The notes beneath the pieces are model-generated. The model was given only the letters and a program-made list of their open reading frames with translations, was not told the DNA's origin and searched no databases. A DNA stretch of 64,000 bases, taken from assembly GCF_016860525.1 (NCBI RefSeq), contig NZ_BNEA01000015.1, forward strand, positions 4,762,001-4,826,000, given 5' to 3'. Every line of letters begins with the position of its first letter. Within the stretch, counting starts at the first letter, position 1. Shown in pieces: positions 24,876-62,309 of this stretch. Source of the stretch: Streptomyces rubradiris (GTDB lineage: Bacteria; Actinomycetota; Actinomycetes; Streptomycetales; Streptomycetaceae). The position numbers and the translations under genes were made by a program.

Positions 24876-24929
24876 CGCCCGCCGTGAAGCGGCCCCGCTG
24901 AAGGGGACGCTGTGAACTCGGCTCACGCC

Positions 24930-38118: not shown

Positions 38119-39114
38119 ATGACGACAGGTCGGCTCGGGCAGCAAGCCGCGCCGCCGAACGCGGCCTATGCCGGGCAGGTCGTGCACTTTCCGGATCCGG
38201 TCCGGGCGGCACGTCATCCGAGGGGGGTGCGGGTCGACGAGCGGGGTTATCCGGATTTCTCGCCGTACGCGCGCGTGGCGGTGGAGATCGCCGAGCCGCC
38301 GGAGGGTTTCGGGGTCGATGAGCTGCGGCTGACGGACTACGTGTCGGCGAACGCGGCATTGGCGGCGGCGGGGCACGAGTTGTGGGACACGGTGCCGAAT
38401 GTGGCGACGCCGCACGGCTGGACGTGGCATCACGTGGCGGGCACCCGGCGGCTGGAGTTGATTCCGGTCGAGGTGAAGGCGCTGCTGAGGCATCACGGCG
38501 GGGTGGCGACGGCGCGGGTGGACCATGCCAAGCGCGGGACGCGGCCGTTGCAGGAGTCGCGGCCGGTGCACTTCGGGCTGCCGAAGTCGGGTGTGGCGGT
38601 GTCGGAGGCGCAGGTGCAGGGGATCGAGGAGGACCTGGGTTACCGGTTGCCGGGTGCCTACCGTTCGTTCCTGAAGGCGGCGGGCGGTTGTGCGCCGGTC
38701 GGCGCGGCGCTGGACGCCGGGCTGGGGCTGCTGGTGGACCAGCCGTTCTTCACGGTGCGGGACGAGGCCGCGGTCAATGACCTGGTGTATGTGAACAAGT
38801 GCCTGCGCGACCACCTGACGAAGGATTACCTCGGGGTGGGGTTCGTGCAGGGCGGGTTGCTCGCGGTGAAGGTGAAGGGCGAGCGGGCCGGTTCGGTGTG
38901 GTTCTGCGCGTACGACGATGTGCGGGACGTGGACGCGGCGTGGTCGCCGGCGGAGCGGGTGGAGCGTCTGCTGCTGCCGTGCGGTGACGACTTCGACGCG
39001 TTCTTGTCCCGGTTGGCCGGTGGTCCGCCGGAGTTGGAGACGGTGGCCGGTCTGATGGTGGACGGCGGCTTCGTCCGGGTCGTCCCGGTGTCTTCCGGTC
39101 CGGTGGGGGAGTGA
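38119..39114 (+). CDS. WHH-type nuclease domain fused to a SMI1/KNR4 (SUKH-1) domain
   Basis: A 331-residue fusion. Residues about 35-130 match the HNH/EndoVII-superfamily nuclease with conserved WHH: DERGYPDFSPY, LTDYVSANAALAAAGHELWDTVP, GWTWHHVAGTRRLELIPVEVKALLRHHGG (WHH at 103-105, extra His at 125-126). Residues about 158-310 are a SUKH domain (VSEAQVQGIEEDLGYRLPGAYRSFLKAAGG), the immunity fold against such nucleases. So a toxin-type and an immunity-type domain share one chain with no secretion signal. It starts at ATG 38119. The next gene follows after 10 bp in the same operon. Confidence 0.85.
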   Translation: MTTGRLGQQAAPPNAAYAGQVVHFPDPVRAARHPRGVRVDERGYPDFSPYARVAVEIAEPPEGFGVDELRLTDYVSANAALAAAGHELWDTVPNVATPHGWTWHHVAGTRRLELIPVEVKALLRHHGGVATARVDHAKRGTRPLQESRPVHFGLPKSGVAVSEAQVQGIEEDLGYRLPGAYRSFLKAAGGCAPVGAALDAGLGLLVDQPFFTVRDEAAVNDLVYVNKCLRDHLTKDYLGVGFVQGGLLAVKVKGERAGSVWFCAYDDVRDVDAAWSPAERVERLLLPCGDDFDAFLSRLAGGPPELETVAGLMVDGGFVRVVPVSSGPVGE

Positions 39115-53910: not shown

Positions 53911-54627
53911 GTGACGCGTCTGAGGGGCGGGGTGGTCACCGCCGTGGCCACGCTGGTCGCCGTGACCGGCTGCACGGCCGAGCAGGACAAGGGGTCCGCC
54001 GGGCCCGGGGAGGGCAAAGGCGGCGGCGCGGCCCTGGCCGCCGCCGAGTCACTGACCGTCAAGGGACGCGCGCCGAAGAGCGGTTACTCCCGAGACCGCT
54101 TCGGCACCGCGTGGGCCGACACCGACTCCAACTCCTGCGACACCCGCGACGACATCCTCAAACGCGACCTGAAGGAAGTGAAGTTCACCGGAGGCACCTG
54201 CAAGGTCACCTACGGCCTGCTGGACCCCGACCCCTACTCCGGCAAGAGGATCACCTACCGGCGCGGTCGCAGCCAGGTCGACATCGACCACGTCGTGGCC
54301 CTCTCCGACGCCTGGCAGAAGGGCGCCAAGTACTGGGACCCCGGCAAGCGCATCGCCCTGGCCAACGACCCGCTCAACCTCCTCGCCGTGGACGCGCGCA
54401 CCAACCGCGGCAAGGGCGACGGCGACGCGGCCACCTGGCTCCCGCCCGACAAGGCCTACCGGTGCGAGTACGTCGCCGCCCAGGTGGCGGTCAAGAAGAA
54501 GTACGGCCTGTGGGTCACCGCCGCCGAACAGTCGGCCATGAAGAAGGTCCTCACCGGCTGCCCGGACCAGAAGCTGCCCACCGGCGGCAACCCGACCCGG
54601 GCGCCCGAACGCTTCCGGGCCCGGTGA
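53911..54627 (+). CDS. Secreted HNH-type endonuclease family lipoprotein (DUF1524/GmrSD C-terminal-like)
   Basis: A 238-residue exported protein. The N-terminal signal ends in a lipobox-like VAVTGC. The nuclease core shows VDIDHVVALSDAW (His-metal motif) near residue 126, NDPLNLLAVDARTNRGKGD near 155, and the C-terminal part has a Cys pair (YRCEY, TGCPDQK). This family is common in actinobacteria as secreted nucleases. It starts at GTG 53911 after AGGGGGG. Confidence 0.88.
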   Translation: MTRLRGGVVTAVATLVAVTGCTAEQDKGSAGPGEGKGGGAALAAAESLTVKGRAPKSGYSRDRFGTAWADTDSNSCDTRDDILKRDLKEVKFTGGTCKVTYGLLDPDPYSGKRITYRRGRSQVDIDHVVALSDAWQKGAKYWDPGKRIALANDPLNLLAVDARTNRGKGDGDAATWLPPDKAYRCEYVAAQVAVKKKYGLWVTAAEQSAMKKVLTGCPDQKLPTGGNPTRAPERFRAR

Positions 54628-56349: not shown

Positions 56350-57072
56350 TCAGATCCTCTTCCAGTCACCGCAGTCGTCGGTCTTGAAGTAGCCGTCCGA
56401 GGCGCTGAGGGTGACGACGGCCGTACCGGTCACATGGTCACCGGCGAGGAACGAGTCCGGGCCGTGCTCGGCGTCCTTGGTGCGCTCCCAGTAGCAGGTG
56501 CCGCCGGTGTTCCCGGTCGACTTGTAGGTGCCCGGCGCGATGTCCGTCCCCACCTGGAACATGCCCGCGTCGCCGTCCATGGAGGTGGCGGGAGTGCCCT
56601 TCGCCGTGGGGGCAGTCGGGTCCACGAGCTCCCAGTCGGCGCAGCCGAAGAACCGGAACACCTTGTCGGTGGGCATGACGGTCACGTAACCCGTGCCGTT
56701 GAGCCGGTCGCCGGCGAGTGTGGCGTCCGGTTGGCCGGAGGCGTCCCTGGCGCGCTCCCAGTAGCACGTGTCATCGGGGTTGCCGGTCGTGCGGTATGTC
56801 CCCGGCTTGATGTCGGTGCCCACCTGGTAGTCGCCGTTGTCCCCGAAGGTGGTCTTCATCTTCTCGGCCGCCCGGGCGCGCCTTGAGTCGGCGGAGCCGC
56901 CCGAATTCTCGCTTGCACCGCCGGGCTTGTGTGGGGCCGAGGGCGAGGAGCCGGCCCGGGCGCCGTCACCCGAACCGCCGGCCTTGGAATGGCTGCCGAC
57001 GGTGGCGGACACGGCCCCGATGACGGCGAGCCCCACCACCGCACCGACCGCGAGCCTGGCCCTCATGCCCAT
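56350..57072 (-). CDS. Exported protein with two tandem copies of a Cys-containing domain
   Basis: A 240-residue protein. An N-terminal signal or anchor (RLAVGAVVGLAVIGAVSATVG) is followed by a Ser/Gly linker and two homologous domains (about 100-165 and 172-240). Each begins QVGTDIxPGTY, contains TCYWER and ends with a Cys-Asp/Gly-Asp-Trp motif, which suggests one disulfide per domain. The function is unknown. ATG 57072 has GGGAGGGA seven bases upstream. It is divergent from the methylase gene, and the shared gap contains the inverted repeat 57148-57175. Confidence 0.8.
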   Translation of the reverse strand: MGMRARLAVGAVVGLAVIGAVSATVGSHSKAGGSGDGARAGSSPSAPHKPGGASENSGGSADSRRARAAEKMKTTFGDNGDYQVGTDIKPGTYRTTGNPDDTCYWERARDASGQPDATLAGDRLNGTGYVTVMPTDKVFRFFGCADWELVDPTAPTAKGTPATSMDGDAGMFQVGTDIAPGTYKSTGNTGGTCYWERTKDAEHGPDSFLAGDHVTGTAVVTLSASDGYFKTDDCGDWKRI

Positions 57073-57147
57073 GACGTATCCCTCCCCGAATGCGGACGGT
57101 CTCCCCCTCCGGCGACCGCTCGTTCGCTGGGTCAATAACAACAGAGC

Positions 57148-57175
57148 GTGTGAACCGAGTCAACACGGTTCACAC
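57148..57175. promoter_or_regulatory. Inverted-repeat operator GTGTGAACC-N10-GGTTCACAC
   Basis: Exact 9-bp arms at 57148-57156 and 57167-57175 lie between the divergent exported-protein and methylase genes. The motif TGTGAAC/GTTCACA is the same one repeated many times inside the methylase gene. A variant CGTGAAC follows at 57195-57201. It is a probable autoregulatory operator for the HTH-methylase protein and may control both genes. Confidence 0.8.
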
Positions 57176-57263
57176 TTGGGGGTGAGTACACGTCCGTGAA
57201 CCCATCGATCTTTGTGTACGCCGGTATGCTCGGCGCACACACGGGACGAGGGGAGCGAAGCCG

Positions 57264-59921
57264 GTGCAGGACAACGCGACAGAGGTGACCGCGGCGGGGA
57301 TCGCCCGACTCGCCGGAGTGGGCCGGGCCGCCGTCAGCAACTGGCGCCGCCGGCACGCCGATTTCCCCAAGCCGGTCGGTGGCACCGAGACCAGCCCCTC
57401 CTTCGCCCTCGCCGAGGTCGAGGCCTGGCTGCGCAAGCAGGGAAAACTCGCGGAAGTACCGCTGCGTGAACGCGTCTGGCAGCAACTCGCCGGCCACCCG
57501 GAGGGCCCGCTGACGGCCCTGGTGCACACCGGCTGCGTGCTGCTGCTGATCCACGAGCGCCCCACGGTCTGGCTCGACGCGAGCGCTGGCTCCGACGCGA
57601 GGCTGGCCGCGATGCTGCCGGGGGCGTTGGAGAAGGTGCTGACACCGCGAGTGGGGGGAGTACGGGGGCGCGGGGGAGCGGGGGTTGGAGGCGCGGGCGC
57701 GGGTGCGGGTGTGAGGGCGGGCGCCGGTGCCGGGGTGGCCGCGGGTGCCGGTGATGGCGTGAACGCGGCGTTCCGGCGGGCTGGTGTGAGCGGGGCGTTT
57801 GGGCAAGCCGGTGTGAACGGGCCGAGCCACACGTCCGTTGGGAACGCGGGTTTCGCGTCGCCCGGTGTGAACTCTGGGTCAGGGGCGGCCAGTGTGAACT
57901 CGGAGCCGGGGTCGGCCGGTGTGAACTGGGAGTCAGGGTCGGCCGATGTGAACTCGGATCTCACCGTGCCTGCTGTGAACCCCGAACCCACCGCGCCCGG
58001 TGTGAACTCCGCCCCCACCCAGCCCGCTGTGAACACATCGTCATCGGCACCAGCTGTGAACACTCCGCCCACCGTTCACAACGAGCCGCCCGTTCACAAC
58101 GAGTCACCCGCTCACAACGCCCCAACCAGCCACGGCCAATCACCGGTTCACAACGCGTCGGCCGTTCACAACCGACCCACTCGGCCCACTGTTCACAGCC
58201 CCGCTCCCGGCACCCCCACAAGCGCCGCCGGCACCCCCAGCGCCCCGACCACCCCCGCCGTCCCCGCCCCCGCCACCCCCACTCCCACCCCCACTCCCGC
58301 CCTGACCACCCCCACCGGCCCCCAACTCCTCCCCTCCGTCCCCCTCCTCCGCGGTGCCGCCGAACTCGCCGCCGAGATCGGTGCCCGGCAGACGTTCGAG
58401 TTCCTGCTGGGCCGGCACCTGGACGCCAACCCCCGCCAGTACACGCTCACCCCGGCCGAGTTGGCGGGCCTCATGGCCGACCTGGCCGGCCCGGCCCGCA
58501 CCGTCCTGGACCCGGCCTGCGGCACCGGTGCCCTGCTGCGCGCCGTGGACCCCCGCCCCGGTCAGGAGCTGTACGCCCAGGACAGCGCGCCCGAACTCGC
58601 CGCGCTCAGCACGCTGCGGCTGGCGCTGCACAGCCGGGCCACCGTGCGTGCCGCCGTCGGCGACACCCTGCGCGCCGACGCCCACCCCGGGCTGCTCGCC
58701 GACGCGGTGCTGTGCCATCCGCCGTTCAACGAGCGCAACTGGGGTCACGACGAACTCGCCTACGACCCGCGCTGGGAGTACGGCTTCCCGGCGCGCACGG
58801 AGTCGGAGCTGGCCTGGGTGCAGCACGCGCTGGCCCGGCTGACCGACGGCGGTACCGCCGTCCTGCTGATGCCGCCGGCCGCCGCCTCCCGCCGTTCCGG
58901 CCGCCGGATCCGGGCCGATCTGCTGCGCCGGGGCGCGCTCAGGGCCGTGGCCGCGCTGCCGGTCGGCGCGGCACCGCCGTACAACATCCCGCTGCACCTG
59001 TGGGTGCTGCGCCGGCCCGACCGGACACCGGCGGCGCCCGAGGTGCTGCTCGTGGACACCGGGAGGTTCGCCGGGGAGGCGCGGGGCGGCCCGGACTGGG
59101 AGGCGGTACGGGAGGCGGTACTGGACGCCTGGCGTGCCTTCGCGCGCGAGGGGCGGCTCGCGGAGCGGCCCGGCCTCGCCCGTTCCGTGCCGGTGATCGA
59201 ACTCCTCGACGACGATGTGGACCTGGCGCCCGCCCGGCATCTGCCGCCGGCCGCGGTGGCCGACGGCGCGGAGCAGCTCACGCGGGTGCGCGAGCGCCTG
59301 GGCGCGACCCTGCGGCTGACCGCCGACCTCACCCCGCCGCCCGCCGACCCGGCCCCGCCCGCGCGCTGGCCGCTGACCACCGTCGGCGAGCTCGCGCGCG
59401 GGGGCGCGCTGGTGATGCGTACCGGCGGAAACGGCGGCCACGCGCGCGTGCCGGTGCTCACCGACCACGACGTCCTCGCCGGGACGTCGCCCTCCGGGAC
59501 GCTGCCCGAGAGCGAGGAGGAGGCCGTGCTGACCGAGCCCGGCGACGTCGTTGTACCCGTGCTCGGCGGGGGCGCGGTGGCGCGCGTGATCGACGAGGCG
59601 ACAGGGGGCGTCGCCCTGGGGCGCAACCTGGTGCTGCTGCGTCCCGATCGCACGGCGCTCGATCCGTGGTTCCTGGCCGGGTTCCTGCGCGGTACCGCCA
59701 ACAACCGGCAGGCCAGCAGCTACGCCTCCACGGCGACCCGGCTGGACGTGCGCCGGCTGCACCTGCCCCGGCTCCCGCTGGAGGAACAGCGCCGCTACGG
59801 CGCGCGCTTCCGTGCCCTCGACGAGTTCGAGCGGGCGCTCAGGCACGCGAGCCGGCTCGGGGAGCAGCTGGTGCGCGGGATGTACGACGGGCTCACCGAC
59901 GGCACGGTGGCACCGGACTGA
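57264..59921 (+). CDS. HTH - N6 adenine methylase-like - specificity-like fusion protein
   Basis: An 885-residue protein. Residues 6-60 form an AlpA/MerR-like helix-turn-helix (VTAAGIARLAGVGRAAVSNWRRR, FPKPVGG, VEAWLRKQGK). Residues about 140-370 are low complexity and hold the V-N/H-N repeats. Residues about 375-620 are an N6 methylase fold with SAM motif DPACGTGALL (from 416) and motif IV as CHPPFNERNW, where family enzymes usually have NPPF/Y; His485 replaces Asn/Asp. The C-terminal part (about 690-880) resembles a type I specificity subunit (TVGELARG, [13 protein letters not shown], LPRLPLEEQRRYGARF). There is no nuclease partner. It may be a regulatory or defence-derived protein. The start codon is GTG. 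Confidence 0.82.
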   Translation: MQDNATEVTAAGIARLAGVGRAAVSNWRRRHADFPKPVGGTETSPSFALAEVEAWLRKQGKLAEVPLRERVWQQLAGHPEGPLTALVHTGCVLLLIHERPTVWLDASAGSDARLAAMLPGALEKVLTPRVGGVRGRGGAGVGGAGAGAGVRAGAGAGVAAGAGDGVNAAFRRAGVSGAFGQAGVNGPSHTSVGNAGFASPGVNSGSGAASVNSEPGSAGVNWESGSADVNSDLTVPAVNPEPTAPGVNSAPTQPAVNTSSSAPAVNTPPTVHNEPPVHNESPAHNAPTSHGQSPVHNASAVHNRPTRPTVHSPAPGTPTSAAGTPSAPTTPAVPAPATPTPTPTPALTTPTGPQLLPSVPLLRGAAELAAEIGARQTFEFLLGRHLDANPRQYTLTPAELAGLMADLAGPARTVLDPACGTGALLRAVDPRPGQELYAQDSAPELAALSTLRLALHSRATVRAAVGDTLRADAHPGLLADAVLCHPPFNERNWGHDELAYDPRWEYGFPARTESELAWVQHALARLTDGGTAVLLMPPAAASRRSGRRIRADLLRRGALRAVAALPVGAAPPYNIPLHLWVLRRPDRTPAAPEVLLVDTGRFAGEARGGPDWEAVREAVLDAWRAFAREGRLAERPGLARSVPVIELLDDDVDLAPARHLPPAAVADGAEQLTRVRERLGATLRLTADLTPPPADPAPPARWPLTTVGELARGGALVMRTGGNGGHARVPVLTDHDVLAGTSPSGTLPESEEEAVLTEPGDVVVPVLGGGAVARVIDEATGGVALGRNLVLLRPDRTALDPWFLAGFLRGTANNRQASSYASTATRLDVRRLHLPRLPLEEQRRYGARFRALDEFERALRHASRLGEQLVRGMYDGLTDGTVAPD
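57756..58061 (+). repeat. Intragenic array A: 12 direct TGTGAAC units at exact 27-bp period
   Basis: Cores start at 57758 (CGTGAAC), 57785 (TGTGAGC), 57812, 57839 (TGGGAAC), 57866, 57893, 57920, 57947, 57974, 58001, 58028 and 58055; nine are exact. Every step is 27 bp. They encode x-V-N, the first codon being GGT, GCT, AGT or GAT: it ends in T in 11 of 12 units. Confidence 0.95.
58074..58199 (-). repeat. Intragenic array B: inverted units (GTTCACA) at 18-bp period
   Basis: Units start at 58074, 58092, 58110 (GCTCACA), 58128 (degenerate), 58146, 58164 and 58191. Steps are 18 bp except the last, which is 27. Five are exact GTTCACA, the reverse complement of TGTGAAC. They encode V/A-H-N or V-H-S. 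Confidence 0.93.
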
Positions 59922-60078: not shown

Positions 60079-60777
60079 ATGCAAGGCCACGGCCACGGAC
60101 AGCCGGTGACGCAGCCACCGCACACCGCGTGGCTGGTCTGCCTGCGTGTGCTGTTCGTGGCGCTCGGAATCCTGACCATCGGCTTCATGTCCTGGGCGCT
60201 GCTGCTGCGGCTGGCGATCGTCACGCGCCGGTCGCTGGACTGGGGGCTGTTCGTGGCGGTGCTGGCCGCCGACATCCTCGCCGTCGTCCTGCTGGGCCTG
60301 GAGCCGGGCGAGGAGATCCACACCACGGGCGGCTATGTGGGCCTGATACTGGTGCTGGGCACGCTCGTGGGCTCGATCGCGTACTACCTGGCCGCGGACA
60401 TCCAGCACTTCGCGCTGCGCCGGCAGGCGTACGCGGCGGTGCCCGGGGCGCCGACGTACGGCTACCCGGCCCCCGCGGCCGCGTACGGCGCGACGACCGT
60501 ACCGACCCCGGCGCCGACGGCGCTCATACCGCCCGTACCGCCCGTACCGGTCGTACCGGCCGCGCCGACCGCGTCCGCCCCGGCCGTACCCACCGCCACG
60601 CCCCCGCCCCCACCCCCGGCCCCGTACGCGCCCCCGCCCGCGCCCGTTCCCGCGCCTCCGTCGGCCGCCCCGCTGCCGCGGCCCCCGGCGCCCGCGCGGA
60701 TCGAGCAGGTGCGCGCGGAGCTGGACGAGCTGAGTGACTACCTGCGCCGGCAGGACGGCCACGAGGGCGGTCGGTGA
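60079..60777 (+). CDS. Membrane protein with Pro-rich cytoplasmic tail, coupled to the kinase gene
   Basis: A 232-residue protein of unknown function. Three membrane helices lie at about residues 18-40, 52-72 and 84-106 (VLFVALGILTIGFMSWALLL, LFVAVLAADILAVVLLGL, VGLILVLGTLVGSIAYYL). A long Pro/Ala/Val-rich tail (about 120-212) and a short helix (EQVRAELDELSDYLRR) follow. The last four bases overlap the kinase start (GTGA). It may be a partner or substrate of that kinase. Confidence 0.75.
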   Translation: MQGHGHGQPVTQPPHTAWLVCLRVLFVALGILTIGFMSWALLLRLAIVTRRSLDWGLFVAVLAADILAVVLLGLEPGEEIHTTGGYVGLILVLGTLVGSIAYYLAADIQHFALRRQAYAAVPGAPTYGYPAPAAAYGATTVPTPAPTALIPPVPPVPVVPAAPTASAPAVPTATPPPPPPAPYAPPPAPVPAPPSAAPLPRPPAPARIEQVRAELDELSDYLRRQDGHEGGR

Positions 60778-62309
60778 GCGTGACGACGGGACGAGTCGTC
60801 GCCGGGCGCTACGAACTGTCCACGCTCATCGGGCAGGGCGGCATGGGCCAGGTCTGGACGGCGTACGACCGGCGGCTGGACCGGCGGGTGGCGGTGAAGC
60901 TGCTGCGCCCGGACAAGGTGGCGGGCCAGGAGACGGACGAGCTGCGCCGCCGGTTCCTGCGCGAGTGCCGGACCACCGCGCAGGTGGACCACCCCGGCCT
61001 GGTGACGGTGCACGACGCGGGCAGCGAGGGCGACGAGCTGTTCCTGGTCATGCAGTACGTCGACGGCGCCGACCTGTCCGACCACCTCGCCGAGCACGAC
61101 CCGTACCCGTGGCCGTGGGCGGTCGCGGTGGCCGCGCAACTGTGCGCCGTGCTGAGCGCCGTGCACGCCGTGCCGATCGTGCACCGCGACCTCAAGCCGC
61201 GCAACGTGATGGTGAAGCAGGACGGCACGGTCACCGTGCTCGACCTGGGCGTGGCCTCGGTGATGGACACCGACACCACCCGGCTCACGCACACCGGCTC
61301 CCCGATCGGCTCGCCGGCCTATATGGCGCCCGAGCAGGCGATGGGCGGCGCGGTCGGCCCGTACACCGACCTGTACGCGCTCGGTGTGCTGATGCACGAA
61401 CTGCTCAGCGGGGAGGTGCCGTTCGCCGGTTCCACCGCGCTCGGGGTGCTGCACCGGCACCTGTACGAGCCGCCGCTGCCCGTGCGCCGGATCCGACCCG
61501 AGGTCCCCGAGGCGCTGGAGTCCCTGGTGCTGCGCCTGCTGGCCAAGGACCCGCAGCACCGGCCGGCGTCCGCGCAGGAGGTCTACGAGGACCTGGCGCT
61601 GCTGCTGCCGGCGCGCGGCACACCAACCGGGGCGCCCCTGGACCCCACGCGCCCCTTCCTGCGTCCGCACGCCCCTTGGCCGGACCGCGCGCGGACCCCC
61701 GCGCACCAGCCCGCTCCGGTCACGCCCGCGCCGCCGGAGATCGAGAAGCCCGATGTCGCCGCCGCTGTGGACGAGGCGAAACAACTGCTGGGCGAGGGCC
61801 GTATCACGCAGGCCGTGGACATTTTGGGCGCGATCCTGCCGGCCGCCGCCGAACAGCACGGCGAGCACTCCCCGGTCGTACGCACCCTGCGCAAGCAGTA
61901 CGCGGCCACGCTCCTGGACGACGGCCAGTACCGGCGCGCGCTGCCCGAACTGCGCCGCCTCGCCGACGAACGCGCCGCCGAGGCGGGCCAGGCGGACGCG
62001 CAGGCACTGCGCTACCGCTACGAGGCCGCGCAGTGCCTGGAGCAACTGGGCGAACCGGCGGCGGCACTGGCCGAGTACCGCGCCCTGCTGCCGTACTACG
62101 AGAACCAGTACGTTTCCGGGGACCCGGGACTCGCCCACGAGGTGCGCCGGCGTGTCGGTCATCTGCTGCTCGCGCTCGGCGACCGGGCGGCCGCCCACGA
62201 CACGCTCGCGCGGCTGGTGACGGACGTCGAGCGGCTGCACGGCCCCGGCCATCCGCTGGCCGTGGAGATCCGGCGGACCCTCCAGTGGCTCGGACAGGTG
62301 CGCGGATAG
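60774..62309 (+). CDS. Ser/Thr protein kinase with TPR-like C-terminus
   Basis: A 511-residue Hanks-type kinase. Gly loop IGQGGMGQVW (about 19-28), catalytic Lys42 in VAVKLLRP, HRDLKPRNVM with catalytic Asp139, DLG instead of DFG (DLGVAS), and GSPAYMAPEQ in the activation segment. The kinase domain ends near 280. A Pro-rich linker and helical TPR-like repeats follow (about 325-505; ALRYRYEAAQCLEQLG, AAALAEYRALLPYYEN). There is no membrane span, unlike PknB, so it is soluble. Coupled translation with the upstream membrane protein suggests they work together. Confidence 0.92.
   Translation: MSVTTGRVVAGRYELSTLIGQGGMGQVWTAYDRRLDRRVAVKLLRPDKVAGQETDELRRRFLRECRTTAQVDHPGLVTVHDAGSEGDELFLVMQYVDGADLSDHLAEHDPYPWPWAVAVAAQLCAVLSAVHAVPIVHRDLKPRNVMVKQDGTVTVLDLGVASVMDTDTTRLTHTGSPIGSPAYMAPEQAMGGAVGPYTDLYALGVLMHELLSGEVPFAGSTALGVLHRHLYEPPLPVRRIRPEVPEALESLVLRLLAKDPQHRPASAQEVYEDLALLLPARGTPTGAPLDPTRPFLRPHAPWPDRARTPAHQPAPVTPAPPEIEKPDVAAAVDEAKQLLGEGRITQAVDILGAILPAAAEQHGEHSPVVRTLRKQYAATLLDDGQYRRALPELRRLADERAAEAGQADAQALRYRYEAAQCLEQLGEPAAALAEYRALLPYYENQYVSGDPGLAHEVRRRVGHLLLALGDRAAAHDTLARLVTDVERLHGPGHPLAVEIRRTLQWLGQVRG

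Follow-up and report, generated by a model that had tools for sequence, protein, structure and literature searches.

The window analysed here is a 64,000-bp stretch of the Streptomyces rubradiris genome (assembly GCF_016860525.1, contig NZ_BNEA01000015.1, positions 4,762,001 to 4,826,000), which contains an HTH-methylase-like gene (57264..59921, forward strand) with a long array of TGTGAAC sites inside its coding sequence. These sites are kept by selection on the DNA and not on the peptide alone. The 885-aa product comprises an N-terminal winged helix-turn-helix (wHTH), a site-filled linker, an N6-adenine methyltransferase (N6-MTase) fold and an HsdS-like C-terminus. An array that is kept as DNA and presumably filled by the product of the same gene suggests self-control via an ordered coat or loop of that product. 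On balance, we favour a wHTH regulator of defence-methylase descent that would control its own expression by forming an ordered nucleoprotein array on the gene encoding it. No description of the gene, its operator or such an array was found in the open-licence PubMed Central literature.

Conservation of the TGTGAAC Sites as DNA

The forward array (57758..58061, forward strand) consists of 12 TGTGAAC-type units with an exact 27-bp period, the first starting at 57758 and the last at 58055. Nine units are exact and the remaining three read CGTGAAC (57758), TGTGAGC (57785) and TGGGAAC (57839); the units code for x-Val-Asn. The reverse array (58074..58197, reverse strand) follows with seven units starting at 58074, 58092, 58110, 58128, 58146, 58164 and 58191, i.e., in steps of 18, 18, 18, 18, 18 and 27 bp. 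Five of them are exact and code for Val-His, and the other two are GCTCACA (58110) and a poor AGCCACG (58128). Where the two arrays meet, they form an intragenic TGTGAAC-N12-GTTCACA (58055..58080) of a geometry identical to that of the promoter palindrome. Re-reading of the sequence thus confirmed the arrangement described in an earlier note on this DNA (12 forward units at 27 bp, seven reverse units mostly at 18 bp, 14 exact copies), including a first codon ending in T in 17 of the 19 units.

The 14 exact sites in the gene (nine forward and five reverse) make up most of the 18 copies found on both strands of the whole window; of the other four, two belong to the palindrome of the promoter (57149-57174), and one copy each occurs at 24911 and at 38790. 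Dinucleotide shuffles of the window gave a mean of 2.95 copies and a maximum of 9 (100 shuffles), so the previous expectation of roughly two was slightly low. When synonymous codons of the gene were shuffled, the mean was 1.35 and the maximum 5 (300 shuffles), a result that excludes chance for a gene of this protein sequence and codon usage.

One scan yielded at least 80 orthologous loci, all labelled Streptomyces. Eight lacked the upstream part, and the other 72 together with the window gene form the set of 73 genes used below. Combined, they hold 269 exact sites versus 16.0 predicted from synonymous codons shuffled within each gene. Of 255 linker codons preceding Val-Asn, 207 end in T, in comparison to 536 of 5226 other linker codons, while the residue encoded before Val-Asn varies (A, G, P, S, R, T, D, L, H or F). 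Likewise, the linker Val preceding His is encoded by GTT in 92 of 121 cases versus 14 of 167 for other linker Val residues. All 67-bp site contexts, 199 forward and 70 reverse, differ from one another. The codon shuffles and the T/GTT wobble usage support the view that the DNA motif is kept beyond the protein repeat.

Selection for a Val-Asn/Val-His repeat with some function in the protein, the DNA motif being its by-product, would fit units that lie in frame within a low-complexity linker. We give this explanation hardly any credence, since the wobble positions that are kept are neutral for the peptide, a single DNA motif read on two strands yields two different peptides, and the synonymous shuffles fall so far below the observed count; the peptide repeat was rejected as the cause on codon usage. 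RNA-level stems were also rejected as a general explanation, with no fold computed: pairing between forward and reverse sites is possible in the mRNA, but not in that of genes such as L008, with 10 forward and 0 reverse sites.

The array varies between relatives. A quick tree was made of 110 proteins, of which 35 were encoded without any exact site, 26 with one or two and 49 with three or more. The three-or-more label needs at least 14 changes on this tree, of which the starred branches force 8 (many branches are weakly supported and some are long). These changes point to the array as a lineage-specific elaboration, gained and lost while the operator stays.

The Promoter Operator

Upstream of the gene lies the predicted operator TGTGAACCGAGTCAACACGGTTCACA, a palindrome at 57149..57174 with a 17-bp core at 57149-57165. 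Its TGTGAACCGAGTCAACA element or a close variant precedes 73 of 73 genes and is exact in 59, which bears out the claim that the array and the promoter share one motif. The right palindrome arm is less constant: all 14 palindrome bases are exact in 23 genes, and 66 genes have no more than three mismatches. The state of this arm showed no link with the presence of the array (mean of 1.44 mismatches in the 41 genes with at least three sites and 1.21 in the 14 genes with none; P = 0.13).

A second half-site-like motif, CGTGAAC (57195..57201, forward strand), starts 46 bp past the operator start, and YGTGAA occurs at +45/46 in 72 of 73 genes. The putative -10-like hexamer of the gene's own promoter is TATGCT (57225..57230, forward strand); all 73 genes have a counterpart of it at +74 to +76 relative to the operator. 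On the reverse strand, a divergent promoter-like pair (57135..57163) consists of TTGACT (57158-57163) and TGTTAT (57135-57140) separated by 17 bp, and conservation around it is strong. The operator likely overlaps this divergent promoter, so the GTCAA half could alternatively be kept as a -35 box and not as a half-site.

The exact N12 palindrome was found in 11 of 121 Streptomyces genomes, at 16 places. Eleven of these coincide with the promoter core and three are intragenic in orthologues of the gene (S. rubradiris itself, G092 and G117); the remaining two lie outside the gene, one in the pca region of S. rubradiris and one at G092 C1:1145756 (L101, L151). The pattern TGTGAACNNNGTCAAY occurred in 57 of 101 genomes and its reversed control in none.

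The pca copy belongs to an intergenic TGTGAAC cluster between pcaJ-like and pcaF-like genes (L001:1493-1720; C15:1366226-1366453 of the same genome), which contains TGTGAAC-N12-GTTCACA, one TGTGAACTGGGTCAAC element and repeated TGTGAACNCNGCTCACA. As a target this cluster was rejected; it is not conserved there, and in G009 and G011 the flanks are joined directly without it.

The Likely Reader of TGTGAAC

The comparison covered 32 further family members (distant-species orthologues, paralogues and other families), and TGTGAAC-N3-GTCAA was also present upstream of paralogues and of relatives in other families. An exact TGTGAAC lay no more than 300 bp upstream in 17 of 20 loci with the HTH sequence VGRAAVSNW and in 0 of 11 with VTRA[AT]VSNW (Fisher P = 4e-6, with relatedness ignored); L194, with VGPAAVSNW and TGTGAAT, was excluded from the count. 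Since the half-site covaries with the HTH type, the HTH of the gene product is the likely binder of TGTGAAC. The protein does begin with a DNA-binding domain, as had been stated: the wHTH spans aa 8-60 (57285..57443, forward strand), has a MerR/BldC/excisionase-like fold with the core GVGRAAVSNWRRR, and is followed by a short helical part and then the low-complexity linker. Conservation at the DNA level, the operator and the covariation with HTH type together support the claim that the gene carries sites for its own product.

The members with VTRA[AT]VSNW and without TGTGAAC are L149, L179, L184, L185, L187-L189, L192 and L196-L198. Two VTRAAV members carry TGTTGACGACGTCAACG and TGTGTACGTTGTCAACG. 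L184, L185 and L189 have in common TGAAAGCA-N2-GTCAA at about -105 to -116, likely a second operator specificity.

Readers other than the HTH were weighed against the same data. HsdS-type readers typically use asymmetric sites of 6-7 bp, and the window protein has an HsdS-like C-terminal region (59478..59867, forward strand). Its target-recognition part might read TGTGAAC, in which case the array would serve a dead methylase as docking sites. We think this improbable, as the half-site tracks the HTH type and the paralogues that share the operator (e.g., L148, L150, L180-L183 and L191) are 76-79% identical in the HTH core and only 39-43% in the C-terminus, a difference that favours the HTH as the reader. 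The redox regulator Rex deserves mention because TGTGAAC is exactly half of its Streptomyces coelicolor operator (consensus TGTGAACNNNTTCACA), and Rex is reported to make weak contact with a half-site (PMC5355995). Binding of the array by Rex is nevertheless very unlikely and was rejected on geometry: a full Rex-type operator, TGTGAAC-N2/3-(G)TTCACA, occurs at only 1 of 269 intragenic sites, the promoter element TGTGAAC-N3-GTCAACA is not a Rex operator, and the half-site follows the HTH type of the HTH-methylase family.

A Common 9-bp Register and the Proposed Autoregulation

Of 208 pairs of neighbouring exact sites no more than 120 bp apart, 191 fall on one lattice, both orientations included. 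On this lattice, sites of the same orientation are spaced by multiples of 9, and the offset from a forward to a reverse site exceeds a multiple of 9 by 1; the reading frame by itself would place one third of the pairs on it. Spacings are mostly 18, 27 and 54 bp. Among one-mismatch sites, 41 of 50 forward and 30 of 48 reverse ones are also on the lattice. In the genes with at least three sites, 214 of 237 sites share the main phase of their gene (simulated mean 127.6, maximum 149), and the register holds for 41 of 45 pairs with flanks less than 40% identical. The non-coding promoter palindrome, with a half-site offset of 19 (2 x 9 + 1), lies on the lattice as well.

BldC is a MerR-like wHTH protein of Streptomyces that forms head-to-tail oligomers on direct repeats (PMC5859096). 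The predicted wHTH of the window protein has the BldC-DNA complex as its best structural match, and the direct repeats and 9-bp register of the gene recall the same system. The wHTH is thus of the MerR/BldC type, but BldC is a stand-alone protein of 68 residues and the window protein has 885 aa with N6_Mtase and HsdS-like parts. Moreover, the BldC repeats are AATT-type and 9 bp apart, whereas the TGTGAAC sites lie at multiples of 9 and never at 9, mostly within the coding sequence of the gene itself.

In the mechanism that we propose, the wHTH would bind TGTGAAC half-sites, as the comparative evidence suggests, starting with the conserved operator that separates the gene from its divergent neighbour. 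The stretch encoding the disordered linker has, in many Streptomyces, become a second, larger set of the same half-sites in one 9-bp register. The role of this set would most likely be cis-autoregulation: subunits may load side by side on the array, in the BldC manner on direct repeats, and may then form a bridge to the operator or stand in the way of transcription, which would keep the output of the gene at a low and steady level. The sequence comparisons themselves show conservation at the DNA level, a common register, a conserved operator and covariation of the half-site with the HTH type; from them we infer the binding, the oligomerisation, the sign of regulation and the role of the array, as well as the loss of catalysis discussed below.

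Internal operators are known for classical repressors, e.g., lac O2 in lacZ and gal OI in galE, which act by looping or obstruction. The window gene resembles them in having operator copies within transcribed coding DNA. They are, however, single sites in target genes, while about 14 sites are found here, within the gene for the regulator itself, whose linker they shape.

Several observations call for caution over the conservation of the sites and their register. The peptide is sometimes kept but recoded without TGTGAAC, although only in a minority of units (a T is missing before 48 of 255 Val-Asn, and 29 of 121 Val-His do without GTT). Conservation thus does not extend to all units, and exact TGTGAAC is absent altogether from 14 of 73 genes. 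The genes behind the register counts are related to one another, and within coding DNA the lattice equally means a Val at every third residue. The similarity of masked flanks is slightly higher at lags of 18 and 27 (0.445 and 0.453) than elsewhere (about 0.39), which indicates that duplication of 18- and 27-bp units contributes to the register. The orientations are out of phase in 7 of the 39 genes having both, and the 9-bp spacing itself is unseen.

The array might instead be a decoy that captures the regulator close to where it is made and buffers its free level, with no repression or looping. The comparative data agree with it equally, and the site number varies freely among close relatives; a pure decoy, however, needs no common register, and with so many pairs on one lattice we consider it unlikely. 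More speculatively, and with some doubt on our part, the product might polymerise over its own coding sequence along a 9-bp lattice seeded by the half-sites, silencing or clamping its own transcription, much as partition proteins coat a centromere. If so, the disordered linker would be a by-product of the DNA sites rather than a protein need, and the site array, linker and regulator would evolve as one object.

The gene is a clear case of transcription-factor sites shaping a coding sequence. It exists in dozens of natural variants, which have between 0 and 15 exact sites, on either strand, that were gained and lost while a single operator was conserved. These variants allow testing of intragenic operators in cis, of the spreading of a BldC-type wHTH on a 9-bp register and of the turning of a defence-type methylase into a regulator.

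The Methylase Part, Paralogues and the DISARM Island

The N6_Mtase domain (PF02384; residues 378-661; 58395..59246, forward strand) was recognised with an E value of 3.5e-28. It retains motif I (DPACGTG), but motif IV reads HPPF in place of the (N/D/S)PP(Y/F/W) of N6-adenine methyltransferases. HPPF was found in 73 of 73 genes and in 120 of 120 homologues among the matches listed, 119 of which have DPACGTG; the solved relative 7vru_A has NPPF aligned at this position. Since HPPF replaces NPPF/Y, catalysis has probably been lost. Other HTH-bearing relatives have QPPS, QPPT, SPPH, YPPT, NPPA or DPPV, and others NPPF or NPPY. The idea that the relatives keeping NPPF have no HTH proved wrong; theirs is divergent, VTRATVSNW.

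The window protein resembles a fusion of MAD1 (HTH), MAD2 (methylase) and MAD5 (specificity) of the MADS system, with matches to mad2 (E 5e-23), mad5 (E 2e-5) and, over its first 84 residues, mad1 (E 8e-5). It differs in being a single fused protein, and it scores 17.9 bits against the cut-off of 720 for the NCBIfam MADS methylase (MAD2 equivalog). The HTH-fused Type I-like methylases of defence islands (PADLOC MTase_I PDLC03037) are similar to it in domain order, HTH core, operator and a nearby kinase.

Such a paralogue, 49% identical, exists in the same genome and has the operator, but it keeps NPPF and has no intragenic array, unlike the window gene with HPPF and a long array. It adjoins DrmD in an island that also holds DrmA, DrmB and DrmC (PADLOC; L219, L220, C15:783000-820000). 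Three exact TGTGAACNNNGTCAAY operators occur in this DISARM island: 84 bp before the predicted start of the paralogue, 147 bp before drmA and 33 bp before an uncharacterised open reading frame (ORF). In a similar 55-kb stretch of G065, 5 of 5 exact operators lie 18-178 bp before an ORF predicted with a simple ORF caller. The island thus offers a candidate DISARM regulator, the paralogue, and a candidate regulon, and the shared operator points to a regulator of DISARM-type islands.

Elsewhere in the same genome, a predicted 721-aa ORF contains two identical copies of TGTGAACTCGGTCAAC at a distance of 135 bp (15 x 9) from each other (L221:3888 and 4023; C15:753887 and 754022).

Neighbouring Genes

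Downstream of the HTH-methylase-like gene lies a Ser/Thr protein kinase gene (60774..62309, forward strand). Of the 72 orthologous loci, 69 also have such a kinase next to the HTH-methylase-like gene on its downstream side, and the remaining three are short stretches. The divergent gene (56350..57084, reverse strand) encodes an Rv1352/Rv1906c-domain protein and is present at 39 of 72 orthologous loci. A secreted-looking protein with a GmrSD C-terminal domain (PF07510) is encoded nearby at 53911-54627.
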